Source of the DNA: Candidatus Kaistella beijingensis
GTDB lineage: Bacteria; Bacteroidota; Bacteroidia; Flavobacteriales; Weeksellaceae
Assembly (NCBI RefSeq): GCF_020084865.1
Contig: NZ_CP071953.1
Coordinates: 186,001-250,000, forward strand
Reading direction: 5' to 3'
Length of the DNA: 64,000 nt
The translations under genes and the position numbers were made by a program. This document shows, piece by piece, positions 5,479 through 48,076 of this stretch. Below the pieces are notes generated by a model that saw only the letters and a program-made list of their open reading frames with translations, did no database searches and was not told the DNA's origin. Each line of letters opens with the position of its first letter. Positions within the stretch are counted from its first letter, which is position 1.

Positions 5479-6561
5479 TCAAAGTCGGTCCAGTGGAGAT
5501 TCCACTTTTCGAAGATGCTTGTCAACAATTTTGGTGTAATTGAGCGTGGTGCTGATTTGGTTGTGGCCCAAAAGTTTTTGGATGAGCGAAATATCGGTCC
5601 CATACTCCAAAAGATGCGTCGCATAACTGTGGCGCAGCGAATGAATCCCGACTGTTTTATGGATCCCTGCTTTTTTCATGGCGTTTTTAAAAACGTTCTG
5701 GGCACTTCTGACAGAGTATTTTCCACCATCCTGACCTTCAAAAAGGAATTCTTTGGGACGGAACTCGCGGTAATAATCCCGAAGTTGCGGCAAGATACTT
5801 TCGGGAAGATTTACGTAGCGGTCTTTTTTGCCTTTGGCTTTCGAGATCAGGACACGCATGGATTTGCTGTCGATATCTTCAATTTTCAAGTTCACGATTT
5901 CACTCACCCGAAGTCCCATTCCATAGCAGAGTTTGATGATGGTTTGGTGTTTGGCGTTTTCGGTAACCGAGATAATTTTTGCGATTTCGGAGGGGTTCAA
6001 AGATTTTGGCAAGATTTCCGGTTTTTTCGGGCGAGGTATTTCGAGGAAGATTTTTTCGCGTCGCAGCACTTTTTCGAAGTAGAATTTTAGGGCGTTGATT
6101 CTGCTGTGCAGATAATTTTCAGAAACCCCCAAATCGGTGACGCAGTAGAGTAGGTAAGCCTTTATTTTTTCCGAAGTTAAATTCTCCACGGGGAAATCTT
6201 TGATGGTGGAAAGCAGCTGCGCAAATTCCGTACTGTATGATCGAAGGGTGTTTTGGCTGAGACCGCGCAAGATGATCTCGTTCTGCAATTCGGTTAGCGC
6301 GTGCAGATTTATGGGGTGAATCTGCAGTAAAGCTTGTTTTCCCAGGATTTTTTTCTCGAGGTTGAACAGGTCTCGATAATGGATTTTATCCGGAACGTAC
6401 CAACATAATTGGGACTGAGACCACCTGGGTTTTGTGAAAGATTTCAAGTGTTTCAGGACATCGAAATTTTTTGGAAAATGAATCCAAATAACGTTATTTT
6501 CTTTATGGGTACCTATCTCGAAGCGAAAAAGATTAAGGTTTAGGGTTTGCGTATTTTTCAT
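5479..6561 (-). CDS. Tyrosine recombinase of the integron-like array
   Basis: 360 residues with all the expected catalytic residues: R218 (GMGLRVSEIVNLK), a beta-hairpin lysine in KAKGKKDRYV (about 243), H307 and R310 (IHSLRHSYATHLLE), H333 (KLLGHNQISTTL) and the nucleophile Y342 (NYTKIV). The C-terminus KVESPLDRL resembles IntI ends. Only about 60 residues separate the hairpin from H307, roughly 40 fewer than in class 1 IntI, so the IntI-specific insertion is missing. An extra N-terminal domain (residues 1-75, with RWSQSQLCWYVP) precedes the core-binding domain. The gene diverges from the cassette array, with the candidate attI 130 bp in front of it, the classical integron layout. I infer that it moves the cassettes. 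A plain XerC/XerD-like role is the alternative, but the context argues against it. Confidence 0.88.
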   Translation of the reverse strand: MKNTQTLNLNLFRFEIGTHKENNVIWIHFPKNFDVLKHLKSFTKPRWSQSQLCWYVPDKIHYRDLFNLEKKILGKQALLQIHPINLHALTELQNEIILRGLSQNTLRSYSTEFAQLLSTIKDFPVENLTSEKIKAYLLYCVTDLGVSENYLHSRINALKFYFEKVLRREKIFLEIPRPKKPEILPKSLNPSEIAKIISVTENAKHQTIIKLCYGMGLRVSEIVNLKIEDIDSKSMRVLISKAKGKKDRYVNLPESILPQLRDYYREFRPKEFLFEGQDGGKYSVRSAQNVFKNAMKKAGIHKTVGIHSLRHSYATHLLEYGTDISLIQKLLGHNQISTTLNYTKIVDKHLRKVESPLDRL

Positions 6562-6659
6562 CTCGTTTGTGTTTTTGCACTTGCGTGTTTTGTGTAGATA
6601 AAATTACAAATTAAAATGAATACTGATAATCAGGGAATTAAAAATTTTATAAAAATTTT

Positions 6660-6687
6660 TTTGTAAGGGGTGAATTGCGTATATTTG
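6660..6687 (+). promoter_or_regulatory. Candidate cassette promoter (Pc-like)
   Basis: TATATTTG at 6680-6687 matches the Bacteroidota -7 box TAnnTTTG. TTTG at 6660-6663 could serve as the -33 box, but the 16-nt spacing is shorter than the usual 17-23. Transcription would start close to 6694 and read into the first cassette. The position, next to the primary recombination site, is where an integron Pc would be expected. Confidence 0.5.
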
Positions 6688-6690
6688 ATT

Positions 6691-6700
6691 GTTAGCAGAA
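6691..6700 (+). other. Candidate primary attachment site (attI-like) and start of cassette 1
   Basis: GTTAGCAGAA has the form of every cassette start in the array (GTTRNNNG) and is the exact reverse complement of TTCTGCTAAC at 8837-8846, the left arm of the site that closes cassette 1. This puts the crossover at G6691^TT. The site is between the divergent recombinase gene and the first cassette gene. Upstream of the core I see no obvious direct repeats, so the extent of the attI is unknown. Confidence 0.75.
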
Positions 6701-6780
6701 ATTTTATACAACTACACTGTTTCAAAGAGGAATATGCCGATAATCCTAAATAGTAGGCAAAAATATTTTTTTTAGATAAT

Positions 6781-7521
6781 ATGAAAAAATTAGAACAATT
6801 ACGGCAAATTCAAGAGGAAATTGAACTCTATTACAAGAAACTCTCAAAAGAAGAAAATATTTTAGATGAATATTTTAATAACTTGAATTTAAAAAGACAT
6901 GTTGAACTCTATTATAAAGTATTTTTTAGTAGAATGAGTTATGATGCGGATATTCTTTTTATCGGTATAAATCCTGGTGGTGGTGAAGAATGGTGTTCAC
7001 CTTTAGAAAAAGAAAAATTTGAATATGTTGAATATGATTATTCCTTAGCATATGAAACAAAAAAGGTTTTTGAATTAGCAAACTATAAAAACTTGTTACA
7101 AGTATTAGACGAAAATAATAGAGTTGTCAAAACCAATCTATATTATTTAGTTACAGAAAATAAAAGTCAATTAGAACATTTTATTAATCACATTCTAAAT
7201 AAAGAACAGAGAGAAGAATTTATTGAAAATCATAAAAACTGGGCTTCAAAAATCATAGATTTATCTAATCCTAAAATTATTATTTATGAAGGTAAATCTG
7301 CATTCAACGAATCACCACCATATTTTAATAATGCTATTAGATTAGTTGATTTCGAAAAAGATGGCATTTATTTAGTTAAATTGAAGGATTACAAATCTGC
7401 GTTGATAGGTTTTAGCAGATTTCAAAGTAGAATTCTAAACAAAGAAATTTTGGCGGAGGTTTTAGAAAAAGAACTTGATACCATAGAGGAAATAAAAATT
7501 TATAAACATTTAACTCATTAA
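6781..7521 (+). CDS. Possible uracil-DNA-glycosylase-fold protein (cassette 1)
   Basis: 246 residues, cytoplasmic, with no transmembrane segment. Residues about 55-65 read DADILFIGINPGGGEEW, which resembles the GxNPG water-activating motif of the UDG superfamily. A later strand, NPKIIIYEGKSAF, resembles the segment in which many UDG-like proteins have their second conserved motif. No further family residues are certain, so glycosylase activity is only a possibility. It is the first gene after the candidate attI and would be the best expressed from the cassette promoter. The next gene starts 10 bp downstream, which suggests a small operon with the following two genes. Confidence 0.5.
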   Translation: MKKLEQLRQIQEEIELYYKKLSKEENILDEYFNNLNLKRHVELYYKVFFSRMSYDADILFIGINPGGGEEWCSPLEKEKFEYVEYDYSLAYETKKVFELANYKNLLQVLDENNRVVKTNLYYLVTENKSQLEHFINHILNKEQREEFIENHKNWASKIIDLSNPKIIIYEGKSAFNESPPYFNNAIRLVDFEKDGIYLVKLKDYKSALIGFSRFQSRILNKEILAEVLEKELDTIEEIKIYKHLTH

Positions 7522-7531
7522 TATCAAACTT

Positions 7532-8831: not shown

Positions 8832-8836
8832 AAAAC

Positions 8837-9035
8837 TTCTGCTAACATTGTATTGGCAAAATGCGGGGCTAAAGTCGGAATTGAAAAATCCTGCAACTTT
8901 TGTCGCCGCTATTTTTCCATTCCATATTATTTTTGTAAGTTTATTCCATGGAAAAAATATCGGCTCAGCTTGGTCGAACTTGAACCAAAGGTTCTTCATT
9001 CTCCCGCACTTCGCCAATACTTTTTCCGTTATCTG
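8837..9035 (+). repeat. attC-like site 1
   Basis: Left arm TTCTGCTAAC pairs with the start of cassette 1 (6691). The inner arms TATTGGCAAAATGCGGG and CCCGCACTTCGCCAATA are near-perfect complements. A central palindrome, TTTTTCCATTCCAT with a matching ATTCCATGGAAAAA, flanks a TTTTTGTAAGTTT loop. The right core is G9028^TTATCTG. Confidence 0.9.
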
Positions 9036-9058
9036 TAACCGATAAACAAATATGCGGT

Positions 9059-9732: not shown

Positions 9733-9866
9733 CTACAGATAACACTGCATTTGCTAGACGTGGTGGAATGTTATCAGTAGCACTATTTGTTATATTTTCA
9801 ATTTTTGTTTTAGTAGAACTTGCGAGCAGTCAAGCCACGCCTCGCAAGATGCTTTGCCGTTAGCCG
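9733..9866 (+). repeat. attC-like site 2
   Basis: Left arm CTACAGATAAC is complementary to the start of cassette 2 (GTTATCTGTAA at 9028). GCATTTGCTAGACGTGG pairs imperfectly with CCACGCCTCGCAAGATGC. It is of shorter type, lacking the long central palindrome. The right core is G9859^TTAGCCG. Confidence 0.85.
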
Positions 9867-9910
9867 CAATGTTAGAAAAACCGTCCACAAAATCAAGAGA
9901 TTATAAAAAT

Positions 9911-10766: not shown

Positions 10767-10774
10767 AAAAACAC

Positions 10775-10974
10775 TGCGGCTAACATGGGTTTTGCAAGAT
10801 GCGGGGTTGAAGGAAACCTTAGAAATATTCTAGAAAATACCCGCAAAAAACTTTTCCATTTTTTAGTTTTTTCGTAATTTTAAAAAATGGAAAAAGTTTT
10901 TGCTAGCGTTTCGTCCTCCTCTCCACTTCCGGTTGCAGTAGCCCGCACCTCGCAAAGCCCTTTTCCGTTGTGCG
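10775..10974 (+). repeat. attC-like site 3
   Basis: Left arm TGCGGCTAAC is complementary to the start of cassette 3 (GTTAGCCGCA). GGGTTTTGCAAGATGCGGGG pairs with CCCGCACCTCGCAAAGCCC. The central palindrome ACTTTTTCCATTTTTT is in inverted copy around TTTTTTCGTAATTTT. The right core is G10967^TTGTGCG. Nearly identical to the right part of site 17. Confidence 0.92.
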
Positions 10975-11329
10975 CAATATTAGAAGCGCGGTATCAAAAA
11001 GAAATTTCGGTCTGAAAAATCAAAATTTTGACTTGAATTTAAACTTCTAAAACTGACTAAAATCTGAAATTCTTTGTGCTGATCTTCAGAAATCCAGAAA
11101 AAAACTTTACGAAAAACTTACGGATTTGAGTATCAAAAATTGTGCTTGACTTTTACAAATTTTGCGCTTAACTGCATGAATAAAGTCTGCGTGAATACTT
11201 TTCTAAAATTCGTGAATAAAATTCTGAAAATCTTTGCGATTTCGTGCGTGAAAAAAATTGTCGTGCTTGATTTTTAATTCTCTGACCTGAATTTAACGAG
11301 TTAAATCCAAGTCGCCGAACTAAAAATAC
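10975..11329. other. ORF-less cassette 4 (non-coding)
   Basis: A 556-bp cassette (10968-11523) of which about 355 bp lie outside the site. I see no convincing gene. The repeated word GCGTGAA occurs three times (CTGCGTGAATA, TCGTGAATA, TGCGTGAAAA), as it does in the other gene-less cassette, 8. It may encode a small RNA or be a decayed gene. Confidence 0.6.
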
Positions 11330-11530
11330 TGCGCACAACATGGGTTTGGCAAAAGCGGGGTTGAGAGTTATCATTTAGAAGATTTCAGCACTTTTAGCCG
11401 CAAAAAACCATTTCGTTTTTTTATTTTTTGTAATTTTGAAAAAACGAAAATGGTTTTTGCTCGGTTCGGGTTTAGTTGGAATTTCCGTCTTTCTTACCCC
11501 CGCCTTCGCCAAGCCCTTTCCCGTTGTGCG
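11330..11530 (+). repeat. attC-like site 4
   Basis: Left arm TGCGCACAAC is complementary to its cassette start GTTGTGCGCA. GGGTTTGGCAAAAGCGGGG pairs with CCCCGCCTTCGCCAAGCCC. The central stem AAAAACCATTTCGTTTTTT pairs with AAAAAACGAAAATGGTTTTT around TTTTTTGTAATTTTG. The right core is G11523^TTGTGCG. Confidence 0.92.
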
Positions 11531-11647
11531 TAATTATACCAAATGCATCGTACCAAAATAGGTCCATATTAATTAAAACAAAGAAGAAATATAAAAACAG
11601 GAACGCTGAAAACTGACTAGAGTAAGCAAAACAGAAAAAATAAAATT

Positions 11648-14281: not shown

Positions 14282-14418
14282 CTACGCACAACAAGGTATT
14301 GCCAAAATGGGGGCTGACGGAAGTAATTCAACATTTGTACTTCTATCAGCCTTTGTGCTATATTTGTACTGACGGATTTCTATTGCCCCCACTTCGGCAA
14401 TACCTAATCCGTTATACG
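14282..14418 (+). repeat. attC-like site 5
   Basis: Left arm CTACGCACAAC is complementary to GTTGTGCGTA at the start of cassette 5. GGTATTGCCAAAATGGGGGC pairs with GCCCCCACTTCGGCAATACC. Short type (about 137 bp) with a loop containing TTCAACATTTGT, shared in variant form with sites 12 and 13. The right core is G14411^TTATACG. Confidence 0.9.
14334..14366 (+). promoter_or_regulatory. Bacteroidota-type promoter inside attC-like site 5
   Basis: TTTG at 14334-14337 and TATATTTG at 14359-14366 are 21 nt apart, a full match to the -33/-7 pattern. Transcription would start near 14373 and run across the core into cassette 6, whose gene starts at 14454. The promoter is part of the loop of the recombination site. 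Confidence 0.6.
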
Positions 14419-14453
14419 ACATTTTATAAAAGCCGCCAATCACAATTAAAAAA

Positions 14454-15359: not shown

Positions 15360-15364
15360 AAAAC

Positions 15365-15561
15365 GTCGTATAACATTGTATTGGCAAAATGCGGGGGAAA
15401 GTAACAAGTTGAACTACTCTACTTTTTTATCCGCAAACACTTTTTTATTTTACAAAAAAGTGTAATTTAGTAAAAGAAAAAAGTGTTTGCTACTTTCGGT
15501 TTTTGTAGAACTTTTAGGCTTCAAAAGTCCCGCACTTCGCCAATACTTTTTCCGTTATACG
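15365..15561 (+). repeat. attC-like site 6
   Basis: Left arm GTCGTATAAC is complementary to GTTATACGAC at the start of cassette 6. TATTGGCAAAATGCGGG pairs with CCCGCACTTCGCCAATA. The central stem GCAAACACTTTTTT pairs with AAAAAAGTGTTTGC around GTGTAATTTAG. The right core is G15554^TTATACG. Confidence 0.92.
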
Positions 15562-16910
15562 CAACCGTATCAAAAATCCCGCACAAAATTCAGTGAACAA
15601 ACAAAAATTTCTATATTTACTCAAAATAACTTTATGGAAGCAGATTTAAAATTAAAATTGGAACAATTGCACAATCGCGTTGATGCATTAAAAGATCAAA
15701 TCAACACCGAAGAAGCAACTAAAAATGCTTTTGTGATGCCTTTTATACAAATTCTTGGTTACGATATTTTTAATCCCACTGAAGTAATTCCAGAATTCAT
15801 CTGTGATATCGGAACTAAAAAAGGAGAAAAAATAGATTATGTAATTAAAAAAGACAACGAACCAATTTTAATTATCGAGTGTAAACATTGGAAGGAAAAT
15901 GCAGACGCTCATAATTCTCAACTTCACAGATATTATCACGTTTCAAAATCCAGATTTGGCGTTTTGACCAATGGCCATATTTTTAATTTTTATGCAGATT
16001 TGGAAAAACCAAATATAATGGATGAAAAGCCATTTTTTACTTTAGACTTATCAAACCTAAAGGATTCAAGTCTTAAAATTCTTGCGAATTTCACCAAAAA
16101 TGGATACAATTTAGAAAGTATTTTGGATTCTGCGGAAGCGCTAAAATATATCAAAGCAATCCGCAGTGAATTTGAGAAAGAATTACAAGAACCTTCAGAT
16201 GAAATGGTAAAAATGTTGGTAAGTAGATTTTTTGATAAGCCTTTGATTGCTTCAAGACTTGCAACTTTCAAAGATTATACAAAACGTGCTTTTTCTAACT
16301 CGATAAATGAATCAATTAGTTTCAGACTAAAAAATGCCTTAAATATTAATGAAACTGTTCCTTCAAAACAATCAGATAATATTACTTCTGTTGATGAAGA
16401 GGAAAATAAAGACGCACCTAAATTCATAACCACACAAGAAGAAATTGAAGGTTCACAGATCATAAAAGCAATTTTAAGAGAGGTAATTCCTGCTTCGAGA
16501 ATTGCTTTCCGTGATACTCAATCATATTTTGGTGTTTTGTTAGATGACAATAACAGAAAACCGCTTTGTAGACTTCACTTTAATTCTTCAAACAAGTATC
16601 TCGAAGTTTTTCATCAGGGAAAAGATAACGGAGAAAAGAAATTGCTGAATTCTTTAGAAGATATTTATGAGTACAAGAATGAACTTCTTGCAACCGTGAA
16701 AAATTATGAATAAAAACGGCTGCGTATAACATAGTATTTGCAAAAGGCGGGGTTGAATATATAATAGAAAAACCCGATGCATTTAGTCGCAACTTGCTTT
16801 TCATATTGTATTTTTTTGTAATTTAACAATCTGAAAAAGCAATTTGCTTCGTTCGGTCGAAATTGAACTTTCAGTTAAATTTAGCCCGCCCTTCGCAAAT
16901 ACTTTTTCCG
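15555..16910 (+). repeat. Duplicated cassette, copy A (cassette 7)
   Basis: A 1356-bp cassette present again at 40633-41988 with a constant offset of 25078 bp, so no insertion or deletion. Encoded proteins are identical. The flanks differ on both sides, and similarity begins and ends at the GTT cores. Confidence 0.95.
15634..16713 (+). CDS. HsdR-N-type restriction endonuclease-like protein, copy A (cassette 7)
   Basis: 359 residues. The N-terminal half is the nuclease domain seen in type I restriction R subunits and in stand-alone COG4748-type proteins. A PD-(D/E)xK core is visible with D68 (KIDYVIK), E82 and K84 (LIIECKHW), and a QLHRYY motif from Q96. There is no helicase domain and no methylase or specificity gene nearby, so it acts alone or with distant partners. 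The C-terminal 100 residues (IPASRIAFRDTQSYFGVLLDD) form a second conserved domain of unknown role. The start is the ATG at 15634; an upstream frame runs through the recombination site. Identical to the protein from 40712. Confidence 0.85.
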   Translation: MEADLKLKLEQLHNRVDALKDQINTEEATKNAFVMPFIQILGYDIFNPTEVIPEFICDIGTKKGEKIDYVIKKDNEPILIIECKHWKENADAHNSQLHRYYHVSKSRFGVLTNGHIFNFYADLEKPNIMDEKPFFTLDLSNLKDSSLKILANFTKNGYNLESILDSAEALKYIKAIRSEFEKELQEPSDEMVKMLVSRFFDKPLIASRLATFKDYTKRAFSNSINESISFRLKNALNINETVPSKQSDNITSVDEEENKDAPKFITTQEEIEGSQIIKAILREVIPASRIAFRDTQSYFGVLLDDNNRKPLCRLHFNSSNKYLEVFHQGKDNGEKKLLNSLEDIYEYKNELLATVKNYE

Positions 16911-16917
16911 TTGTGCG
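16720..16917 (+). repeat. attC-like site 7
   Basis: Left arm CTGCGTATAAC is complementary to GTTATACGCA at the start of cassette 7. AGTATTTGCAAAAGGCGGGG pairs with CCCGCCCTTCGCAAATACT. The central TTGCTTTTCATATTG pairs in part with CAATCTGAAAAAGCAA around TTTTTTTGTAATTTAA. The right core is G16910^TTGTGCG. Same as site 16. Confidence 0.92.
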
Positions 16918-17330
16918 ACATGCTGCCAAAATTGCGCATAAAGTGTTTGAAAATCGAAAAATTTATCTGAAATTTTTGAACAAGCCAAACTTCAACGTTC
17001 CTAAAAATTGGGGGAAAATCTTTGGAAAAACTGCGTGAATATTTCAAGCCGCAAAATTTTAGATACTTTGGAAAAACTGCGTGAAAAACGTTGCGTTAAA
17101 AATTGCGCCGAAAAACCATCTTTGGAAAAACGCCGTAAAATCCACATCTCGACAAAATCACGTTAAAGTGCGTGAATATTTCAAAAGTGTGCATGAAGTT
17201 TGCAAAAAAATTGCGCAAAACATTTTCGGAAAATTTTTTAGGATTTAGTCGGAGATTTTCCATGCGAAAGGAAAAAATTATTAACTTTATCGAAACAAAA
17301 AAAACGAAAAATTATAGGAAAAGAAAGCAC
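16918..17330. other. ORF-less cassette 8 (non-coding)
   Basis: Most of a 549-bp cassette (16911-17459). No convincing gene. It holds three near-copies of CTTTGGAAAAACTGCGTGAA (about 17010-17030, 17065-17085 and a decayed one near 17120) and further GCGTGAA words. The same GCGTGAA word recurs in cassette 4. Confidence 0.6.
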
Positions 17331-17466: not shown

Positions 17467-17505
17467 TCATTGTAAAGCGACACGATATAAATACGAATTG
17501 ACATT

Positions 17506-35965: not shown

Positions 35966-35996
35966 CAACCGGATTTGAGATTCCGCATCAAATAAA

Positions 35997-36029: not shown

Positions 36030-36045
36030 AATTAAATTATTTGTG

Positions 36046-36603: not shown

Positions 36604-36804
36604 CTGCATATAACAGTGTATTTGCAAAAGGCGGGGTTGAATATATTCTGTGAAAATTAAGTTAGCAAAAGCCGCAAAAAATTTTTCCACTTCCTGTTTT
36701 TTTTGTAATTTAGTCAGTGGAAAAATATTTTGCTCCAGGTGGTTTTTCTTTCCACTTTTTGTGCAAAGTAGCCCGCCCTTCGCAAATACTTTTTCCGTTG
36801 GCTG
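36604..36804 (+). repeat. attC-like site 14
   Basis: Left arm CTGCATATAAC is complementary to GTTATATGCA at the start of cassette 14. GTGTATTTGCAAAAGGCGGG pairs with CCCGCCCTTCGCAAATAC. The central AAAAAATTTTTCCAC pairs with GTGGAAAAATATTTT around TTTTTTTGTAATTTAG. The right core is G36797^TTGGCTG. Confidence 0.92.
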
Positions 36805-36889
36805 CAAGCGTAACCCACGACATTGCAGAACAACCAACGGGGAAGCTGAAAACCGAACAGAGTAAGCACAACATTTAAACATTAACAAA

Positions 36890-37126
36890 ATGGGAAAAAC
36901 AGGAAAAGTAATCGTTTTCGTGGTAGTGTGCTTCGTAATCGTAGTAGTTCTAACAATCATTAAAGAAGCAGGTGGAGGTGCTGTTATGTGGCTTGGTGCA
37001 ATAGCAATACCTCTAATTTACAAAAGTATGTTTGGTAAAAAAGACGACCAAACCAAAAATCAAAATGGCGACATTACTTTAAACAAGGACAAACAAAATG
37101 ATAACGACATCACCTTGAAAAAGTAA
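36890..37126 (+). CDS. Small membrane protein (cassette 15)
   Basis: 78 residues with two predicted transmembrane helices (about 5-24 and 30-46), then a hydrophilic tail (KKDDQTKNQNGDITLNKDK). Inner membrane. It overlaps the DnaJ-domain gene by one base (the A of its stop is the A of the next ATG), so the two are translationally coupled. No family recognised. Confidence 0.6.
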   Translation: MGKTGKVIVFVVVCFVIVVVLTIIKEAGGGAVMWLGAIAIPLIYKSMFGKKDDQTKNQNGDITLNKDKQNDNDITLKK

Positions 37127-37755
37127 TGATACCTAATCACTACAAGACACTTGAAATTGAGCCAACGGCAACAAAAGAAGAAATTAAAAAGGCATACAGA
37201 CGGCTTGCTTTAAAATTTCACCCTGACAAAAACAAAAACCCTGATGCTCACGAAAAATTCATTGCTATCAATGAAGCATACCTCATTTTGTTTGATGATG
37301 AGGCTAGAGTAAAGTATGACCGAGAGTATCAATATTACTTCGGACAAAAGGCAAAAGCAGAGAATACAGGAACTCATCAACAACGGCAAGACGACAAAAA
37401 ACAAGAAGAAACAAAATCTTCAAGTTCCAAACAACAAGAGCCGCAATTTGAAGATGAAGACCTAAACAAGTGGACAAGAAATGCACGACAGCAGGCTGAA
37501 AGTTTTGCTAAAATGGCATTTAATGACTTTTCAAATTTGGTTGTTGGAATGGTTAAAGAAACAGGTTTCCAACTTGGAAATGCTTTTCTTGTAATGCTTG
37601 GTGCTTTATTGTCAATGGGCGGTTGTGGTAATATTGTCGTTGGACTATCAACAAAAGGGGAAATAGGAAATCCTATACTTGGCATAATACTATTGCCTAT
37701 TGGCATTTTACTTTACAAACTTGCTCACAACAATTACGATAATCACAAAACATAG
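37126..37755 (+). CDS. J-domain (DnaJ-like) membrane protein (cassette 15)
   Basis: 209 residues. The N-terminal J domain is complete: HYKTLEIEPTATKEEIKKAY, YRRLALKFHPDKN with the essential HPD at about residues 33-35, and INEAYLILFDDEARVKYD. A charged Gln/Lys linker follows, then two C-terminal transmembrane helices (about 145-165 and 180-200). It would recruit DnaK to the membrane. Followed 4 bp later by a secreted-protein gene. Confidence 0.85.
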   Translation: MIPNHYKTLEIEPTATKEEIKKAYRRLALKFHPDKNKNPDAHEKFIAINEAYLILFDDEARVKYDREYQYYFGQKAKAENTGTHQQRQDDKKQEETKSSSSKQQEPQFEDEDLNKWTRNARQQAESFAKMAFNDFSNLVVGMVKETGFQLGNAFLVMLGALLSMGGCGNIVVGLSTKGEIGNPILGIILLPIGILLYKLAHNNYDNHKT

Positions 37756-37758
37756 ATT

Positions 37759-38421
37759 ATGAAAAAAATATTCATCATACTTATTGCCTTTCTTTGTGCA
37801 ACTCAATTTAGTATTGCACAAACACAACCTTTACCAACATTACAATCAGGTTGGCAAAGAATTTATATTAAAAATGTAGGAAGTTTTGATTTGCCCCCAA
37901 CAATGGAAGTACAAAAAGGCAAATACAAAGAGTTTGTTGATGAGATAAAAAAGATAAAAGGGTTTGATGCTTCGCAACTTGTCGCACAACAAAAAGGACT
38001 TAACGAATTTGGAAAAGAGGGATTTGAAAAATATGCTCGTATAATGGTTGAAACAACATTAGGCAGTTTTGGCGATTATGAAAAGTTGAATTTCAACATT
38101 TCAGAATACACGCAAACAGACATCAATGAACTTAATAAGATGTTTAAACAAGAAACTCAAAACAGTTTTTACGGAACAGGACTTAAACTTATAGAATGGT
38201 ATCCTTTGAAGATTGAAAAAGTAAATGGAATGTCCTGCATACATATAAGTTACAAACGGCAACTTCAAGACAAGCCATTTGTTTTAGTTCATATGTACAT
38301 CTTTCACAACAACGACAGAATGCACACATTTACCCTTTCCTACCGTTTATCAGAAGCTACTTATTGGCAAACAGATTATGCGACAATCCTAAAAAGTTTC
38401 AGAATTACGAACATTAAATAA
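37759..38421 (+). CDS. Secreted hypothetical protein (cassette 15)
   Basis: 220 residues with a signal peptide (1-20, ending SIAQ). The sequence contains GSFDLPPTMEVQKGKYKEF and a final SYRLSEATYWQTDYATILKSF, a pattern seen in small stress-type periplasmic proteins that I cannot name. It forms an operon with the J-domain gene. A dyad and a new promoter-like box follow, so the ATPase/nuclease pair downstream is probably transcribed separately. Confidence 0.62.
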   Translation: MKKIFIILIAFLCATQFSIAQTQPLPTLQSGWQRIYIKNVGSFDLPPTMEVQKGKYKEFVDEIKKIKGFDASQLVAQQKGLNEFGKEGFEKYARIMVETTLGSFGDYEKLNFNISEYTQTDINELNKMFKQETQNSFYGTGLKLIEWYPLKIEKVNGMSCIHISYKRQLQDKPFVLVHMYIFHNNDRMHTFTLSYRLSEATYWQTDYATILKSFRITNIK

Positions 38422-38461
38422 TCTAAAAACACCAAAAACAAGTAAAAATAGAGCTAAATAT

Positions 38462-38505
38462 AGCGTTATTTTAAAAATAATGACTACTTTTACAGAAGTA
38501 ACGCT
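38462..38505 (+). promoter_or_regulatory. Dyad with promoter-like box before rloA
   Basis: AGCGTTA (38462-38468) and TAACGCT (38499-38505) form a perfect 7-bp inverted repeat, and TACTTTTA (38485-38492), close to the -7 consensus, lies between them. This is the layout of an operator over a promoter, about 16 bp before the ATPase start. Confidence 0.5.
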
Positions 38506-38520
38506 AAAATAGACATTATT

Positions 38521-39849
38521 ATGCTTATTCAGTTCTCAGTTAAAAATTTTAGGACTTTCAAAGAGAAAGCCACTATCAGCCTTGTAGCGTCTAATTACGA
38601 TAAGACAACTCGTGAGTCTGATAACATTTTTGAAGACAACATTTTCAATCTGCGTGTTCTGAAAAGTGCAGTAATCTATGGTGCAAATGCGAGCGGTAAA
38701 AGTAAGTTTATGGAGGCACTGATGTTTATGAAACATTTTGTCATCACAAGTTCAAAAGACAGTCAGAAAGGCGACAAAATCAATATCGAACCTTTTAGAT
38801 TGAGTACAGAAACCGAACATTTACCAAGTGAATTTGAGGTTATTTTTACTTTTGAAAATGAAATGTACAGATATGGTTTTGAAGCCGACAATGAAACTAT
38901 TATCTCTGAATGGCTTTATCACAGACCTAAAACCAAAGAAGTAGAATTGTTTTACAGAGAGTTCCAAGATTTTGAAACACACGCAAGAAATTTTTCCAAA
39001 GGAAATACGGTAATTAAAGAAGGCTTGGTTAGAGACAATGCTTTATTGATTTCAGTTGCGGCACAATTTAACGATGCTATTGCTATCAATGTGATTGATT
39101 GGTTCAAACAGTTAAAAACTATTTCGGGACTAAATGAAGAAGGCTATCAAGGTTTCACAATGAGCAAAACCGAAAGCCCTGTTCATAAATCTAAAATTCT
39201 CAATCTTCTTAAAGCAGCAGATTTGGGTATTCAAGATATTAAACTTCAAAAGTTGGACATTGAGCAACTGCCAAAAGATATGCCCAAAGATTTGAAAGAA
39301 CGGATTATTAAAACTGTTCGTGAAGAAAATGCTGAATTTATCTCTGACGTTATCACTTTTCACAAAAAGTATGATGCCAACAAAAAGAATACAAATGAAA
39401 CTGTACGCTTTTCTTTGGACGAAGATGAATCATCGGGAACACGGAAATTTTTCGCTCTTACAGGACCTATTTTAGACGTTATTGAAAATGGCTATACGCT
39501 CGTTGTAGATGAATTAGATTCTAAACTTCATCCGAATTTGGTTTGCAAATTGGTATCGCTTTTTAACTCAAAAGAGATTAACAAAAAGAACGCTCAACTT
39601 ATTTTCAACACACACGACACTAATTTATTAAGTTCAGGATTATTCAGGCGTGACCAGATTTGGTTTGCCGAAAAAAACAAATACGGAGAAGCCCGACTTT
39701 ACTCGTTAGGCGATTTCAAATCAGAAAATGTAAGAAAAACCGAAGCCTTTGAAGATAATTATATCAGAGGAAAATACGGAGCTGTTCCATATTTGGAATA
39801 TTTTGATAGTCTGACTAAAAATTTGCCGCAATATGAAAATGAAAGATAA
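38521..39849 (+). CDS. rloA: RloA-like AAA ATPase (cassette 15)
   Basis: 442 residues, OLD/SMC-like ABC ATPase of the AAA_15/RloA group. FSVKNFRTFKEKATISLVAS is the start typical for this group. AVIYGANASGKSKFMEAL is Walker A (about residues 55-67). LDEDESSGTRKFFALTGPIL is the ABC signature, TLVVDELDSKLHPNL is Walker B with D-loop, and FNTHDTNLLSS is the H-loop. It overlaps rloB by 17 bp. The same ATPase-nuclease pairing is known from AbiL and, more remotely, PARIS, where the ATPase senses phage and releases the nuclease. Anti-phage function is inferred from the family. Confidence 0.88.
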   Translation: MLIQFSVKNFRTFKEKATISLVASNYDKTTRESDNIFEDNIFNLRVLKSAVIYGANASGKSKFMEALMFMKHFVITSSKDSQKGDKINIEPFRLSTETEHLPSEFEVIFTFENEMYRYGFEADNETIISEWLYHRPKTKEVELFYREFQDFETHARNFSKGNTVIKEGLVRDNALLISVAAQFNDAIAINVIDWFKQLKTISGLNEEGYQGFTMSKTESPVHKSKILNLLKAADLGIQDIKLQKLDIEQLPKDMPKDLKERIIKTVREENAEFISDVITFHKKYDANKKNTNETVRFSLDEDESSGTRKFFALTGPILDVIENGYTLVVDELDSKLHPNLVCKLVSLFNSKEINKKNAQLIFNTHDTNLLSSGLFRRDQIWFAEKNKYGEARLYSLGDFKSENVRKTEAFEDNYIRGKYGAVPYLEYFDSLTKNLPQYENER

Positions 39850-40537
39850 AAGAGCAGAACAAATTGAGGCAAAGAAACGGCACAGAGAACAGTTAAAATC
39901 AAAGCGTAGAAATGAACCTGTTTTTGAAAGAAGTGAACCTGTACTGCAAGAAAAGCCAACAATACTGATTGTATGCGAGGGAGAAAATACAGAACCCTCA
40001 TATTTCAGTCAGTTTAGGCTTTCTACTGCAACTATTAAACCTATCGGAGAAGGATATAACACGATTTCTCTTGTAAACAGAGCTTCCGAATTAGCGAAAG
40101 AAAAAGATTACGAACAAGTTTGGTGCGTATTTGACAAAGATGATTTTGACAACAACGACTTTAACAATGCCATTGTAACAGCAGAAGTTCAAAACTTTGG
40201 TGTTGCTTATTCAAATCAGGCATTTGAATATTGGATAATTCTGCATTTTGAAGACCATCAAGGAGGCGGAATGCATAGAAAAGACTACGATAAGAAAATC
40301 AATAATCTTCTCAAACCTTTCAAATTGGTCTATGACGGAGAAGGCAGTAAAATTATTACAGAAGAAATATTTGAAGTGTTGGACGGAATTGACGAAAAAA
40401 CGAATAGAGAAAGAAAAGTGTTAGCTATTCAAAGAGCAAAAAGGAATTACGAACAGTTTGAACACGCCAATCCTGCGACAGAAGAATCATCAACTACTGT
40501 ATTCAGACTTGTTGAAACATTATTGAAGTACACATAA
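39833..40537 (+). CDS. rloB: RloB-like Toprim-type nuclease (cassette 15)
   Basis: 234 residues. After a basic N-terminus comes PTILIVCEGENTEPSYFSQF, the Toprim glutamate motif, and then EQVWCVFDKDDFDNNDF, the DxD motif. AYSNQAFEYWIILHFEDHQ is the following conserved RloB segment. Such proteins are thought to be metal-dependent nucleases controlled by RloA. Start may be the ATG at 39833 or 39839; both overlap the rloA stop. The pair ends about 12 bp before site 15. Confidence 0.87.
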   Translation: MKMKDKRAEQIEAKKRHREQLKSKRRNEPVFERSEPVLQEKPTILIVCEGENTEPSYFSQFRLSTATIKPIGEGYNTISLVNRASELAKEKDYEQVWCVFDKDDFDNNDFNNAIVTAEVQNFGVAYSNQAFEYWIILHFEDHQGGGMHRKDYDKKINNLLKPFKLVYDGEGSKIITEEIFEVLDGIDEKTNRERKVLAIQRAKRNYEQFEHANPATEESSTTVFRLVETLLKYT

Positions 40538-40548
40538 ACAGAACGCCA

Positions 40549-40639
40549 GCAGCCAACAAGGGTTTGGCGTAATTGGCTTGCCAACGCTCAAACCCAACCG
40601 CACAAAAGCCAACTACGCCAAGCCCAGAACCGTTATACG
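40549..40639 (+). repeat. attC-like site 15 (shortest)
   Basis: 91 bp. Left arm GCAGCCAAC is complementary to GTTGGCTGC at the start of cassette 15. GGGTTTGGCGTAATTGGCTT pairs with AAGCCAACTACGCCAAGCCC with two mismatches; the loop is about 26 nt. The right core is G40632^TTATACG. Confidence 0.92.
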
Positions 40640-41988
40640 CAACCGTATCAAAAATCCCGCACAAAATTCAGTGAACAAACAAAAATTTCTATATTTACTC
40701 AAAATAACTTTATGGAAGCAGATTTAAAATTAAAATTGGAACAATTGCACAATCGCGTTGATGCATTAAAAGATCAAATCAACACCGAAGAAGCAACTAA
40801 AAATGCTTTTGTGATGCCTTTTATACAAATTCTTGGTTACGATATTTTTAATCCCACTGAAGTAATTCCAGAATTCATCTGTGATATCGGAACTAAAAAA
40901 GGAGAAAAAATAGATTATGTAATTAAAAAAGACAACGAACCAATTTTAATTATCGAGTGTAAACATTGGAAGGAAAATGCAGACGCTCATAATTCTCAAC
41001 TTCACAGATATTATCACGTTTCAAAATCCAGATTTGGCGTTTTGACCAATGGCCATATTTTTAATTTTTATGCAGATTTGGAAAAACCAAATATAATGGA
41101 TGAAAAGCCATTTTTTACTTTAGACTTATCAAACCTAAAGGATTCAAGTCTTAAAATTCTTGCGAATTTCACCAAAAATGGATACAATTTAGAAAGTATT
41201 TTGGATTCTGCGGAAGCGCTAAAATATATCAAAGCAATCCGCAGTGAATTTGAGAAAGAATTACAAGAACCTTCAGATGAAATGGTAAAAATGTTGGTAA
41301 GTAGATTTTTTGATAAGCCTTTGATTGCTTCAAGACTTGCAACTTTCAAAGATTATACAAAACGTGCTTTTTCTAACTCGATAAATGAATCAATTAGTTT
41401 CAGACTAAAAAATGCCTTAAATATTAATGAAACTGTTCCTTCAAAACAATCAGATAATATTACTTCTGTTGATGAAGAGGAAAATAAAGACGCACCTAAA
41501 TTCATAACCACACAAGAAGAAATTGAAGGTTCACAGATCATAAAAGCAATTTTAAGAGAGGTAATTCCTGCTTCGAGAATTGCTTTCCGTGATACTCAAT
41601 CATATTTTGGTGTTTTGTTAGATGACAATAACAGAAAACCGCTTTGTAGACTTCACTTTAATTCTTCAAACAAGTATCTCGAAGTTTTTCATCAGGGAAA
41701 AGATAACGGAGAAAAGAAATTGCTGAATTCTTTAGAAGATATTTATGAGTACAAGAATGAACTTCTTGCAACCGTGAAAAATTATGAATAAAAACGGCTG
41801 CGTATAACATAGTATTTGCAAAAGGCGGGGTTGAATATATAATAGAAAAACCCGATGCATTTAGTCGCAACTTGCTTTTCATATTGTATTTTTTTGTAAT
41901 TTAACAATCTGAAAAAGCAATTTGCTTCGTTCGGTCGAAATTGAACTTTCAGTTAAATTTAGCCCGCCCTTCGCAAATACTTTTTCCG
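40633..41988 (+). repeat. Duplicated cassette, copy B (cassette 16)
   Basis: Second copy of cassette 7, with constant offset and identical encoded protein. It begins in GTTATACGCAACC, like copy A, but is preceded by AGCCCAGAACC instead of ACTTTTTCC. It is followed by GTTATCTGTAATT instead of GTTGTGCGACATG. Confidence 0.95.
40712..41791 (+). CDS. HsdR-N-type restriction endonuclease-like protein, copy B (cassette 16)
   Basis: 359 residues, identical to the protein encoded at 15634-16713: PD-(D/E)xK core D68, E82, K84 and QLHRYY from Q96, plus the C-terminal domain of unknown role. Here the gene directly follows the RloAB cassette. Having two identical copies points to recent copying by the cassette system instead of ancient duplication, and may raise dosage. 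Confidence 0.85.
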   Translation: MEADLKLKLEQLHNRVDALKDQINTEEATKNAFVMPFIQILGYDIFNPTEVIPEFICDIGTKKGEKIDYVIKKDNEPILIIECKHWKENADAHNSQLHRYYHVSKSRFGVLTNGHIFNFYADLEKPNIMDEKPFFTLDLSNLKDSSLKILANFTKNGYNLESILDSAEALKYIKAIRSEFEKELQEPSDEMVKMLVSRFFDKPLIASRLATFKDYTKRAFSNSINESISFRLKNALNINETVPSKQSDNITSVDEEENKDAPKFITTQEEIEGSQIIKAILREVIPASRIAFRDTQSYFGVLLDDNNRKPLCRLHFNSSNKYLEVFHQGKDNGEKKLLNSLEDIYEYKNELLATVKNYE

Positions 41989-41995
41989 TTATCTG
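41798..41995 (+). repeat. attC-like site 16
   Basis: Same as site 7 up to the crossover (left arm CTGCGTATAAC, AGTATTTGCAAAAGGCGGGG, central TTTTTTTGTAATTTAA). The right core differs: G41988^TTATCTG. Confidence 0.92.
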
Positions 41996-42022
41996 TAATT
42001 TTAAAAATAACACCTAAATATT

Positions 42023-42627: not shown

Positions 42628-42640
42628 CTACAGATAACAT
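42628..42640 (+). repeat. attC-like site 17, left fragment
   Basis: CTACAGATAAC followed by AT. It is complementary to GTTATCTGTA at the start of cassette 17 (41988). The rest of the site continues at 43885, beyond the inserted IS110 element. Confidence 0.88.
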
Positions 42641-42677
42641 ATTCTATGTCAAAAAACAAGTACTATTTTGAATTTTT

Positions 42678-43682
42678 TCATGCCGCAAATTGTTGTGTTT
42701 TCACGTAGGGAGTCCCACGCCCGATGACCGCAAAAATCCGGTTGACGAGTTTGAATTTAACGTTGTTTAGCGCCAACATTTTCGGTTTTCCTTCCGCCTG
42801 TTTTCGCTCGTAGTAGAGCTTCAGCTCGTGGTCGTACTTTATTGCCGTCAGTGAAAGCAGGTGCAGTATCGACTTCATCTTTTTGTCGGCAAAAGGGCTC
42901 ACCCTGCTTTTCCCCCGGATGCTGGTTCCCGATGTTCTCCCGAATGGCGCTATTCCGCAGTAGCACGCATATTTTCTCGCATTCCTGAACCGCAGAAATC
43001 CCTTCGTGGTGAGCAGCAGATAAAGCGTTCCGATTTCTCCGACTCCCGGTATGCTGCGCAACAGTTCCCGTTTAGCGTTAAGGTCCTCATCGCTCCTGAC
43101 GAGTTTGCTTATTGCCAGTTCCAGGGTTTTCAACTGGGATTTCAGGAACGTTACCGTCTTTCTGTTGGCGGATTTCACGCTCCTGTAGACTTCCTTTCCC
43201 AAGAATTCCTCGCCCTCCGAAGTGCGCTCGAAACTTTTTATCGCGGCGATGAGCTTTTCGCGTTCCGCATTCATGAGGTTAAGTTGCTGGTAGATGATTT
43301 CGGGAACTTCCGAGAGTTGGATCTTGTCCTCGTTGCGCATCGCGTATTTGGCGATCTCCTGCGCATCTATCGTGTCGCTCTTGCCTCTGGAAAGACCTCT
43401 GGAACGCTTGATCTCGATTGCGGGGACTTCCGCATAGTTCCAACCGTTCCCGCACAGGAACACCGCCAGAATAGTGGAGTAGATTCCGGTATGCTCGAAG
43501 ACCACGAGTGTGTCCTCCATCATCAGTCCTTCCTTTGAAAACGCTGCAAATAGCGTCTGCAGAGACTTTTTCTCATTGGCGACGCTTCCTCTCTTTACCG
43601 TGTCTCTTTGCGGAATCAGGAGGCAGTAGTCCAAGGTGTTTTTGGAGACGTCGAAACCCAGGTAGTTTTTGTAATTTTTCAT
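42678..43682 (-). CDS. IS110-family DEDD transposase
   Basis: 334 residues. The N-terminal RuvC-like DEDD domain shows D in NYLGFDVSKNTLDYCL, E in TLVVFEHTGIYS and D in GKSDTIDAQEIAKYA. The C-terminal Transposase_20 domain has LLRSIPGVGEIGTLYLL and YCGIAPFGRTSGTSIRGKSR with the probable catalytic Ser. G+C content is visibly higher than in neighbouring cassettes, a sign of separate origin. It is transcribed against the cassette direction. Confidence 0.95.
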   Translation of the reverse strand: MKNYKNYLGFDVSKNTLDYCLLIPQRDTVKRGSVANEKKSLQTLFAAFSKEGLMMEDTLVVFEHTGIYSTILAVFLCGNGWNYAEVPAIEIKRSRGLSRGKSDTIDAQEIAKYAMRNEDKIQLSEVPEIIYQQLNLMNAEREKLIAAIKSFERTSEGEEFLGKEVYRSVKSANRKTVTFLKSQLKTLELAISKLVRSDEDLNAKRELLRSIPGVGEIGTLYLLLTTKGFLRFRNARKYACYCGIAPFGRTSGTSIRGKSRVSPFADKKMKSILHLLSLTAIKYDHELKLYYERKQAEGKPKMLALNNVKFKLVNRIFAVIGRGTPYVKTQQFAA

Positions 43683-43884
43683 ATCTTTATTTTTAGAAAG
43701 GTGGTTGAATGGTTTTAAAATCTTTAGTAGTTCTTGTCTAATATTCTATTTGAAACTTCAGTTCAACCTTTATGCAAAACAGAGTACTGATATGTTAGTT
43801 AAATCTGATTTAATTTACAGGGTTTTTTAGGTCACTCTGTTTTGCTTTCTAAAGGTATTTATTTTATGGATGCAAAGTAAAGAT
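43683..43884 (-). ncRNA. Probable bridge-RNA region of the IS110 element
   Basis: About 200 bp of non-coding DNA upstream of the transposase gene inside the element. In IS110-group elements this region gives the bridge RNA that pairs with donor and target DNA. I infer it from position only and did not derive loops. Confidence 0.45.
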
Positions 43885-44071
43885 GGGTTTTGCAAGATGC
43901 GGGTTGAAGGAAATCTCAGAAATATTCTAGAAAATACCCGCAAAAAACTTTTCCATTTTTTAGTTTTTTCGTAATTTTAAAAAATGGAAAAAGTTTTTGC
44001 TAGCGTTCGGTTCTCCTCTCCACTTTCGGTTGCAGTAGCCCGCACCTCGCAAAGCCCTTTTCCGTTACCTG
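43885..44071 (+). repeat. attC-like site 17, right part
   Basis: GGGTTTTGCAAGATGCGGG, the central ACTTTTTCCATTTTTT palindrome and CCCGCACCTCGCAAAGCCC, nearly identical to site 3. The right core is G44064^TTACCTG. Together with 42628-42640 it restores a complete site. Confidence 0.9.
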
Positions 44072-44111
44072 CAAGCGTAGCAGACTACAGTGCTAACATC
44101 GACAGAGAGAA

Positions 44112-46421: not shown

Positions 46422-46439
46422 CATGCAAGACAAAACGCC

Positions 46440-46640
46440 TGCAGGTAACATGGGTTTGGCAAAAGCGGGGTTGAAAGTTATCATTTAGAAGATTTCAGCA
46501 CTTTTAGCCACAAAAAACCATTTCGTTTTTTTATTTTTTGTAATTTTGAAAAATGGAAAAAGTTTTTGCTAGCGTACGGTCATCTCTTGAAATTCCGGTT
46601 GCAGTAGCCCGTACCTCGCAAAGCCCTTTTCCGTTATCTG
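46440..46640 (+). repeat. attC-like site 18 (chimeric)
   Basis: Left arm TGCAGGTAAC is complementary to GTTACCTGCA at the start of cassette 18. The left half (GGGTTTGGCAAAAGCGGGG to TTTTTTGTAATTTTGAAAAA) matches site 4. The right half (TGGAAAAAGTTTTTGCTAGC to CCTCGCAAAGCCC) matches sites 3 and 17. The arms therefore pair less well. The right core is G46633^TTATCTG. Confidence 0.9.
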
Positions 46641-46664
46641 CAATACAAAAACAGCCTACAAATA

Positions 46665-46991
46665 ATGAGTGTAGAACAAATTGACAAAGTTGATTTTATT
46701 AGCACAAAACCTGATGGAAACGTTGAGTTGACAATTTCAGACCATCTTGAATGGAACAATAGAAATGAACACTTTCAAATTTTACAAGACAAACTTAACT
46801 CCTACCTTAATTTCATTGAAAGCGGACAATTAGGTGAAGAATATCCCAATGCAATAAATAAAAAAATATCTATACGTTTAATCATGAAATTTGCTCCTGA
46901 CAAAATTGCAGTTGAATTTTTAGAGAATTGCCAAAGCATTATTGAAAGTGAAAATGTAGACTTCTCTTGGAAAATGCTAAATCAAAAATAA
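46665..46991 (+). CDS. DUF6572-like hypothetical protein (cassette 19)
   Basis: 108 residues, soluble: MSVEQIDKVDFISTKPDGNV then ELTISDHLEWNNRNEHFQIL and LQDKLNSYLNFIESGQL. The look is that of small proteins often linked to immunity or effector loci (a DUF6572-like pattern), but I am not certain. Only gene of cassette 19; the site begins 5 bp after the stop. Confidence 0.6.
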   Translation: MSVEQIDKVDFISTKPDGNVELTISDHLEWNNRNEHFQILQDKLNSYLNFIESGQLGEEYPNAINKKISIRLIMKFAPDKIAVEFLENCQSIIESENVDFSWKMLNQK

Positions 46992-46995
46992 TGTA

Positions 46996-47195
46996 CTGCA
47001 GATAACATAGTATTGGCAAAAAACGGGGTGAATATTGTCTTTGCGCATTCAGTTAACAAAATTCGCAAAAATGCTTTTCATATTTCTATTTTCCGTAATT
47101 TAGAAATCTGAAAAAGCATTTTGCTCAGGTTCGGTTTTCCTTTGAAAATGTCAGCAAAGTAGCCCGTTCTTCGCCAATACTTTTTTCGTTATCTG
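46996..47195 (+). repeat. attC-like site 19
   Basis: Left arm TGCAGATAAC is complementary to GTTATCTGCA at the start of cassette 19. AGTATTGGCAAAAAACGGGG pairs with CCCGTTCTTCGCCAATACT. Central TGCTTTTCATATTTC pairs with GAAATCTGAAAAAGCA around TTTTCCGTAATTTAG. The right core is G47188^TTATCTG. Confidence 0.92.
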
Positions 47196-47221
47196 CAATA
47201 TTACCAAAGCGGCTGCCAAAA

Positions 47222-48055
47222 ATGATTCAAGATAAATTAACTCAAATTTGGGTAAAACTTTCCGGAAGAAAAATTGACATTAACAAAGATTTTTGGATTT
47301 ATGGAATAATTGGAGACGAAGATAAAATTGATGATAAATTCTTTAAAAATCTCGCTGAAAAAGAAAATCTAAAAATAACTTCAAACCAACCAAATTCTGG
47401 ACTTATTGAAAACATAAATGTTTTAGATTTTACCGAAGTAGAAAAGAATTTATTAAATCCGAAAGTAATTGATTTCTATGAAAATACATCAAATTATGAC
47501 TTTGAAATTTGGTCTGAATGGAAAGGAATTTTCAAACCGTTTGGATTTTTATTGACGAAAATTTTCAGCAAAAGATTGCAACAATTAAATATTCCAACAA
47601 ATCCTCTTGCAATGGCAAAAGGTCTAAAAAGTGAAATTGTAAAATTAAAAAAAGATGACGAAACATTATTTACAATTTGGTACAGAAAAATAAAAAGTAC
47701 AAATGATGTGATTTACTCTGGAGTTTACACAACTACATTTATGCCTCATTTCAAAAAAAATCTCTTAAAAGTAATATTTCCACTTCCAAATGGAAATGCA
47801 ACTGTAATTATGACCAAAAAAGTTTTGGATAATGGATCTTTACTTCTAAGTAGCGACGGAAATAAATTTGGAGAAAATGGATTTTATTTTTTTCTAACCA
47901 ATCACAAAGGAAAATATTGGGCGAAATTTGTAAAGGTTTTACACGAATGGATTGAAGTATACGTCGATGAAGAAAATGTTTTAAGAACAGACCATAATTT
48001 TAAATTTTATGGAATCAATTTCCTAAATCTACATTACAAAATGACAAAAAAATAA
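47222..48055 (+). CDS. Hypothetical protein (cassette 20)
   Basis: 277 residues, basic, without a clear signal peptide or membrane segment. Readable stretches are WVKLSGRKIDINKDFWIYGI, FGFLLTKIFSKRLQQLNIPT and AMAKGLKSEIVKLKKDDETL; the C-terminal half is beta-rich (VIYSGVYTTTFMPHFKKNL). No family recognised. Sole gene of the last cassette; its stop is 3 bp before the truncated site. Confidence 0.6.
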   Translation: MIQDKLTQIWVKLSGRKIDINKDFWIYGIIGDEDKIDDKFFKNLAEKENLKITSNQPNSGLIENINVLDFTEVEKNLLNPKVIDFYENTSNYDFEIWSEWKGIFKPFGFLLTKIFSKRLQQLNIPTNPLAMAKGLKSEIVKLKKDDETLFTIWYRKIKSTNDVIYSGVYTTTFMPHFKKNLLKVIFPLPNGNATVIMTKKVLDNGSLLLSSDGNKFGENGFYFFLTNHKGKYWAKFVKVLHEWIEVYVDEENVLRTDHNFKFYGINFLNLHYKMTKK

Positions 48056-48057
48056 TA

Positions 48058-48076
48058 CTGCAGATAACAAGGTATT
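48058..48076 (+). repeat. attC-like site 20, truncated
   Basis: CTGCAGATAAC (complement of GTTATCTGCA at the start of cassette 20) then AAGGTATT, after which similarity to other sites ends. The right half of the site and its GTT core are missing in this window; a different mobile element begins here. Confidence 0.85.

Follow-up and report, generated by a model that had tools for sequence, protein, structure and literature searches.

Among the traits held to define IntI, the integron integrase, is an additional domain (archaeal-integron paper, PMC9668308), and its I2 element is described as required for cassette capture and not known in other proteins (eLife, PMC7790495). One review includes Bacteroidota among the integron-bearing phyla (PMC8618304). 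For Bacteroidetes, the IntegronFinder 2.0 paper gives only In0 elements as the earlier record and one complete integron, in Salinibacter (PMC9024848); for 12 Chryseobacterium indologenes isolates, another study gives no integron by IntegronFinder and an island with OXA-347, tetX, and aadS in all but one (PMC12382657). Recombinase-associated acquired interbacterial defence (rAID) of Bacteroidales combines a tyrosine recombinase with conserved intergenic motifs, the word integron being unused in the sections at hand (PMC12247911). In Riemerella anatipestifer, homology-independent gene integration was described in 2026, with 27 bp before the gene and a 140-bp attC-like tail; the donor island also has tet(X5), OXA-1327, and aadS, and the same partial text names no mechanism, recombinase, or integron (PMC13148043). 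Parts of the idea developed here are thus already published, in the Riemerella work (PMC13148043) and, without the word integron, in that on rAID (PMC12247911). A literature search that took in little subscription content returned no title or abstract describing the system considered here, a tyrosine recombinase and a neighboring cassette array in Candidatus Kaistella beijingensis (family Weeksellaceae). The window, that is, the whole stretch analyzed, is the 64,000 nucleotides at bases 186,001 to 250,000 of the 2.82-Mb genome (single contig, NZ_CP071953.1).

We consider it highly probable, from the sequence features set out below, that positions 5,479 to 48,083 of the window are an integron-like array of 20 cassettes with covarying hairpin sites and G|TT cores, and that the adjacent recombinase likely cuts out cassettes as circles and inserts them at a conserved attI beside its own gene. 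This reading is favored by circle closure, a core-exact duplicate, a core-exact difference of one cassette, a linked attI, and the lack of any IntI over cutoff in the site-bearing genomes examined. The geometry is that of the original prediction. A recombinase gene diverges from about 41 kb of + strand cassettes (n = 20) ending at 48,083; an attI-like candidate primary site has its core at 6691; and of the 20 cassette sites, all in one direction, 18 are intact, another is interrupted by an IS110-family element (42636/44064), and the last is present only as a left half (48066). The intact sites measure 80 to 189 nucleotides from AAC to GTT. A structure-based detector gave 15 sites on the + strand of the window; the − strand and five 3-mer shuffles yielded none. 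Also as predicted, the core is GTTRNNNG in 20/20 cases and the canonical GTTRRRY in 0/20.

Likeness to integrons, including the large sedentary chromosomal ones, extends from this layout (divergent recombinase, single attI, one-direction cassettes) to the folded R''-L''-L'-R' site, the G|TT circle logic, a cargo of defence and toxin-antitoxin genes, and a likely mobile copy with resistance cassettes. The differences are a recombinase outside the IntI clade, with 53 rather than 95 residues between two motifs, a core of GTTRNNNG rather than GTTRRRY, and a conserved A.C/G.T position in the arms. By sequence tests, then, the system behaves like an integron; by a definition based on the enzyme (IntI with I2, GTTRRRY), it is not one.

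An integron cassette is a circle cut at G|TT, and the left box of its site should equal the cassette's own first bases. The bases after the site in the array are already part of the next cassette, and the box need not match them. In the window, the 7 bases before AAC agreed with the start of their own cassette at 7/7 in 16 cases and 6/7 in 4 (136/140 bases); against the start of the following cassette, agreement was 75/133 bases, with 6 or 7 of 7 in 3/19. None of 100,000 permutations reached 136, the best giving 104. One cassette failed the rule, so that a missing boundary starting GTTATGCGAC was predicted, and a site was then located at 21618-21757. Two sets of loci extend the comparison: the best 80 of 372 recombinase relatives from a scan of named genomes (the relative loci), and the array side of 20 family genomes, picked mainly for long contigs (the family loci). 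The sets share organisms (e.g., L008 and L157), and so their counts are not additive. Closure held for 36 of 44 consecutive pairs among the relatives, against 1 in the counterpart comparison, and for 98 of 125 in the family loci at 6 or 7 of 7, against 16. By the logic of these matches, the cassettes are circular units with a G|TT crossover, as in integrons.

In each site, the paired arms form an R box of 10 bp, an L box of 8 bp, and a 6-bp inner stem, giving the paired R and L boxes of attC sites. Across the 18 intact window sites, the L helix is paired at 97.2% and the inner stem at 94.4%; the R box is paired at just 75.6% in the array, as closure predicts. Both sides have changed in 15 of the 24 pairs (as high in 2/500 shuffles), and the arm covariation score was equalled by none of 500 shuffles. 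A conserved A.C breaks the inner stem on the top strand; the bottom strand has a G.T wobble there and so gives a continuous helix. The A.C is present in 17/18 window sites and in 137/141 sites of the family loci, and calculated DNA energies make the bottom strand the more stable in 17/18 (one tie) and 126/141 (one equal), respectively. None of the 141 family sites has the core GTTRRRY; 134 have GTTRNNNG, partly by construction, since the detector itself demands GTT[AG]NNN[AG]. Their commonest class (94/141) has 120 to 129 nucleotides from AAC to GTT, or about 140 with the flanking boxes. We propose that the substrate of the enzyme is the bottom strand in folded form, with its continuous arm helix and G.T wobbles, and that the A.C/G.T asymmetry would pick the strand, taking the place of the extrahelical bases read by the I2 helix of IntI.

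An enzyme without the I2 stretch, on which IntI depends for hairpins (PMC7790495), might instead act in a Xer-like manner on double-stranded attI and cores, the hairpin having some other role, such as transcription termination or replication pausing. The nearest solved folds, archaeal Xer (4a8e) first and IntI4 (2a3v) second, fit such an enzyme. We nevertheless regard this as unlikely, given that the arm sequences diverge widely yet compensate and that a double-stranded reaction would not need the strand asymmetry kept in 137/141 sites.

Closure from the first detected site also points to where cassettes would enter. It reaches C(G/A)(T/C)ATATTTGNNN|GTTR in 11 of 16 family loci, a close variant in one, an earlier undetected core in three, and nowhere in one. 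This motif occurs in 15 of the 20 family stretches; the window and each of six copies of a recombinase platform described below have it a single time; in 42 of the 80 relative loci it starts 94 to 252 bp from the recombinase match, and no other copy was found in the 1,122,590 bp of the 80 loci, on either strand. Motif and closure together place an attI beside the recombinase gene, as in integrons. In Bacteroidota the −7 promoter consensus is TAnnTTTG. The attI contains TATATTTG, which fits this consensus; attI thus probably carries the predicted array promoter, and TATATTTG would be the −7 element of a promoter reading into the newest cassette.

The recombinase itself matches Phage_integrase and Phage_int_SAM_4 in Pfam, and R218, H307, R310, H333, and Y342 are invariant in 19/19 aligned relatives. 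In NCBIfam, its best score, with the archaeal XerA/integron model, was 208.6 (cutoff, 220), and the second best, with the IntI model TIGR02249, was 187.7 bits (cutoff, 265); XerC and XerD scored about 169 each, and wherever a cutoff is given it was missed. The IntI-specific insertion is absent, as originally noted. The IntI profile aligns in two pieces that leave its positions 179 to 241 unmatched, and in an alignment with five IntI proteins the IntI-specific stretch (additional domain/I2) is absent both from the window recombinase and from that of a rAID-like locus. Two motifs flanking the stretch are 53 residues apart in 63/63 parsed relatives (17 of the 80 loci were unparsed), 54 in the rAID-like protein, and 95 in 7/7 parsed IntI (of 24 rows). 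A 34-row tree separates the recombinase clade (17 rows, support 98/97) from IntI (13 rows, 100/99), the rAID-like protein joining the former at 98/96 and a y4qK protein at 88/74; the genome's own two Xer proteins are placed apart from it. A search for IntI relatives on plasmids gave nothing but near-copies of IntI1, which were left out of account. The proposal of a separate integron-like lineage is supported by this placement outside both IntI and the genome's own Xer.

The IntI model ranks second in NCBIfam and matches in two pieces, which could also be the mark of a decayed classical integron whose integrase has lost I2. This seems highly improbable to us: the clade is separate from IntI at the support values just given, the shorter spacing is fixed in every parsed relative, and cassettes have moved recently in the arrays. 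Likeness to archaeal XerA and XerC/D is seen in the best NCBIfam score (below cutoff) and the best fold match. Unlike Xer, the protein is not one of the genome's housekeeping pair, adjoins a cassette array, and has about 90 extra N-terminal residues. Palindromic, intergenic repeats could in principle be ordinary dispersed repeats, with a housekeeping Xer nearby. We give this account almost no credence and have rejected it in view of the tree position of the genome's Xer proteins, closure, core-exact cassette differences, and attI linkage.

Movement of cassettes can be read within the window and between genomes. An HSDR_N cassette is present twice in the window (15554 and 40632), 1361 bp long and 100% identical, with different flanks on both sides; identity starts two bases before one GTT core and stops with the next core. 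Single cassettes also recur in different orders, at up to 99.5% identity. Sphingobacterium lumbrici and Chryseobacterium lacus share one (1062 bp, 99.5%), as do Proteiniphilum and Parapedobacter (93.3%) and C. lacus and Parapedobacter (93.1%); the ends of these three fall at cores or no more than about 20 bases away, and one partner of each pair has its cassette directly after attI. A fourth, common to a Chitinophagales bin and S. lumbrici (88.9%), starts at a core and stops at the next site's AAC.

One recombinase platform is 99 to 100% identical over 2.4 kb in six genomes of five genera, and this near identity across genera suggests that it is likely mobile. In two of its carriers from different genera, G004 and G126, the sole difference within a 5.4-kb stretch is one core-exact cassette of 1,040 bp, with identical flanks (3,000 bp left, 1,400 bp right). 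A third genome, G032, has this cassette at another place in its array. The original prediction had called for such an array comparison, and genomes do differ in whole-cassette steps. The platform cargo was read in G126, which has a Lnu(H)-like gene, tet(X) (861.7 bits; cutoff, 750), an OXA-1327-family beta-lactamase (621.7; cutoff, 590), and aadS (518.6; cutoff, 450). Farther along, two inserted elements of about 2.4 kb also distinguish G004 from G126. In platform locus L174, elements of about 2.4 kb (12458-14874 and 15895-18311) carry an IS91-family transposase and a tyrosine recombinase; both are inserted at the AAC of shared-platform sites, or 1 or 2 bases off.

The relative loci come from several Bacteroidota orders and one record labelled Phycisphaerales. 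Detector sites lie upstream on the divergent strand in 34 of the 80 and downstream, in the same direction, in 8; among the upstream sites, 71 have the expected strand and 3 the opposite one, and in 19 loci the contig ends less than 1 kb away on the array side. Within the family, a recombinase match at 1e-50 was found in 114 of 296 genomes, weaker relatives included, and 16 of the 20 family loci have at least one site (141 sites on the expected strand, 3 on the other). R1, a covariance model made by joining the arms, performs poorly on sites of about 200 nucleotides. On 18 genomes it gave 4 matches in the window genome and 3 to 9 in 7 of the 8 recombinase-bearing genomes; it gave none in G114, although the detector finds 23 sites there. 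A class-wide R1 tally (60/345 genomes) was left unused because the window's own genome scored 0 in it. Between them, R1 and the detector find sites beside recombinase relatives across Bacteroidota, as the proposed covariance-model search would have it. We did not find sites that are widespread without the recombinase, arrays that never differ by whole cassettes, or a recombinase firmly within an Xer group.

The arrangement is inverted, with sites downstream in the recombinase direction, in L045, L054, L055, L056, L068, L074, and L076 by the detector and in L043 by R1 only; these relatives come from Cytophagales, Kapaibacterium, Ignavibacteria, and others. In L074 (13945-17879), pairs of hairpin sites about 100 bp apart occur three times, and the second member breaks the closure rule.

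Could a classical IntI encoded elsewhere move the cassettes in trans, the neighboring recombinase being a bystander? The phylum does have classical IntI, over the TIGR02249 cutoff in 105 of 395 sampled genomes, and stray sites occur in genomes lacking the recombinase. We rejected this explanation as very unlikely. No IntI over the cutoff was found in any of 20 site-bearing genomes (the 16 family loci with sites, the window's genome, and three other platform carriers; 3 of the 20 show a single site), and only one of the 105, G331, is labelled as the same class, the same-class share of the 395 being unstated. The attI motif, moreover, lies 94 to 252 bp from the recombinase match and at no other place in the 80 loci.

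The sole rAID-like locus that we read, the name rAID being our label for it, is L121 of Parabacteroides. Its genes, annotated as type VI secretion system immunity and SMI1/KNR4, are co-oriented, with intergenic hairpins. It resembles the window in a tree-neighbor recombinase without the IntI-specific stretch and in hairpin sites that obey closure, at 45/49 bases, as high in 1 of 20,000 permutations; the eight cores were chosen by eye, and the best AAC 34 to 60 nucleotides upstream was counted, in the permutations alike. R1 had no match in this locus. The rAID-like locus differs from the window in its sites of about 40 to 50 nucleotides, its core (A)TTA, an array downstream in the recombinase direction, and immunity-type genes. 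Of the features that mark rAID, the window has a related recombinase and a conserved intergenic motif; where rAID has a recombinase followed, in the same direction, by short immunity genes, the window has a divergent array with mixed cargo.

For Riemerella, the published 140-bp tail matches the commonest site class, and locus L028 encodes a relative of the recombinase. The Riemerella loci read differ in having neither an array nor the attI motif. In the Riemerella loci and in those labelled as of the window's genus (L028 and L163 to L165), the recombinase is present and the detector finds no array, R1 giving one lone match, at L028 11544-11688. Locus L092, from a genome (G166) likewise labelled as of the window's genus, is identical to L008 of Kaistella antarctica across 4,062 bp. 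Riemerella gene uptake may reflect the same system.

Several observations weigh against the integron-like reading of the window. Closure shows a circular unit, which is compatible with a single- or a double-stranded substrate, and the top strand folds better in 14 of the 141 family sites. No attI motif is present in 38 of the 80 relative loci or in the Riemerella loci read. Among relative loci with at least 3 kb upstream, sites are upstream in only 26/45 and on either side in 32/45, and the detector found none in 4 of the 20 family loci despite the recombinase. Of 10 genomes lacking a recombinase match at 1e-50, 6 gave one or two site matches (E values of 4e-7 to 1e-3), comparable to the stray cassettes known for ordinary integrons, and every genome checked has further tyrosine recombinases. 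The AlphaFold model of the recombinase is of moderate quality (pLDDT, 80.8; pTM, 0.52), and the deep order of the tree is unsure because the rAID-like, y4qK, and Xer rows are long.

With moderate confidence, we suggest that Bacteroidota have an integron lineage of their own, which would capture genes via folded single strands without I2, choose the strand by its A.C-to-G.T position, and span chromosomal arrays, gut rAID, and a mobile platform with tet(X), OXA, and aadS. If so, the step credited to I2 would be unnecessary for the origin of integrons. A cassette system without I2 makes the single-innovation account of integrons (PMC7790495) testable. The recombinase becomes a candidate engine for Riemerella gene uptake, and a rAID-like gut immunity array becomes linked to integrons. 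The tet(X), OXA-1327-family, and aadS genes appear as cassettes of a platform common to five genera. The IntegronFinder results in Bacteroidetes and C. indologenes suggest that surveillance may be missing the system, the genomes of those isolates lying outside our analysis.

Features of the array and its cassettes (window positions)
Feature	Position	Strand	Remarks
Tyrosine recombinase, 360 aa, without IntI-specific insertion, divergent from array	5479..6561	-	
attI-like site, C(G/A)(T/C)ATATTTGNNN|GTT; core G of GTT at 6691; sole copy of the motif in the window	6678..6693	+	closure 7/7 with first site
attC-like site 1	8836..9038	+	closure
attC-like site 2	9733..9869	+	closure
attC-like site 3	10774..10977	+	closure
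attC-like site 4	11329..11533	+	closure
attC-like site 5	14282..14421	+	closure
attC-like site 6	15364..15564	+	closure
HSDR_N cassette, copy 1	15554..16912	+	Pfam; 100% identical to 40632-41990
attC-like site 7	16720..16920	+	closure
attC-like site 8	17330..17469	+	closure
Single cassette with two GmrSD-like restriction genes	17506..21568	+	
attC-like site 9	21618..21757	+	easily overlooked; predicted by closure, then located
Cassette with CdiI_3 immunity gene	21815..22252	+	
attC-like site 10	22540..22744	+	closure
attC-like site 11	32555..32759	+	closure
attC-like site 12	34226..34365	+	closure
attC-like site 13	35828..35968	+	closure
ParD/ParE toxin-antitoxin cassette genes	36043..36593	+	
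attC-like site 14	36604..36807	+	closure
Four-gene cassette: DnaJ, unknown, AAA_21 ATPase, RloB-like	37126..40537	+	
attC-like site 15, shortest	40547..40642	+	closure
HSDR_N cassette, copy 2	40632..41990	+	
attC-like site 16	41798..41998	+	closure
attC-like site 17, interrupted by IS110-family element	42628..44074	+	closure
IS110-family transposase within site 17	42678..43682	-	
attC-like site 18	46439..46643	+	closure
attC-like site 19	46996..47198	+	closure
Site 20, left half only; array end	48058..48083	+	closure 7/7

The cargo of the window cassettes includes CdiI immunity, GmrSD, ParDE, AAA/RloB, HSDR_N, GNAT, and ankyrin genes, along with genes without a Pfam match. The unit at 22734-32749 is 10 kb long, closes at 7/7, has a local GC content of about 40%, and encodes a 1517-amino-acid protein without a Pfam match; it may represent a fusion of several cassettes or contain an insertion. 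In classical integrons, attC is a known target of IS1111-type elements. In the window, the IS110-family element (42636-44064) interrupts site 17 in the spacer that separates its R'' and L'' boxes. Two matches to the Rfam family DUF805b RNA (32909-32941 and 36836-36868) lie 160 and 39 bp past cassette starts, and this RNA family may be a cassette-associated leader.

A 221-amino-acid recombinase adjoins tet(X3) on an Acinetobacter plasmid (L118, 3052-3717); it is 47.5% identical to the window recombinase over the matched part, and R1 found no site beside this fragment. Outside the window, 25 to 47 kb past the end of the first array, the detector gives a second row of 10 sites on the + strand (genome positions 259,632-280,491; L183, 9632-18111, and L184, 3036-10491).

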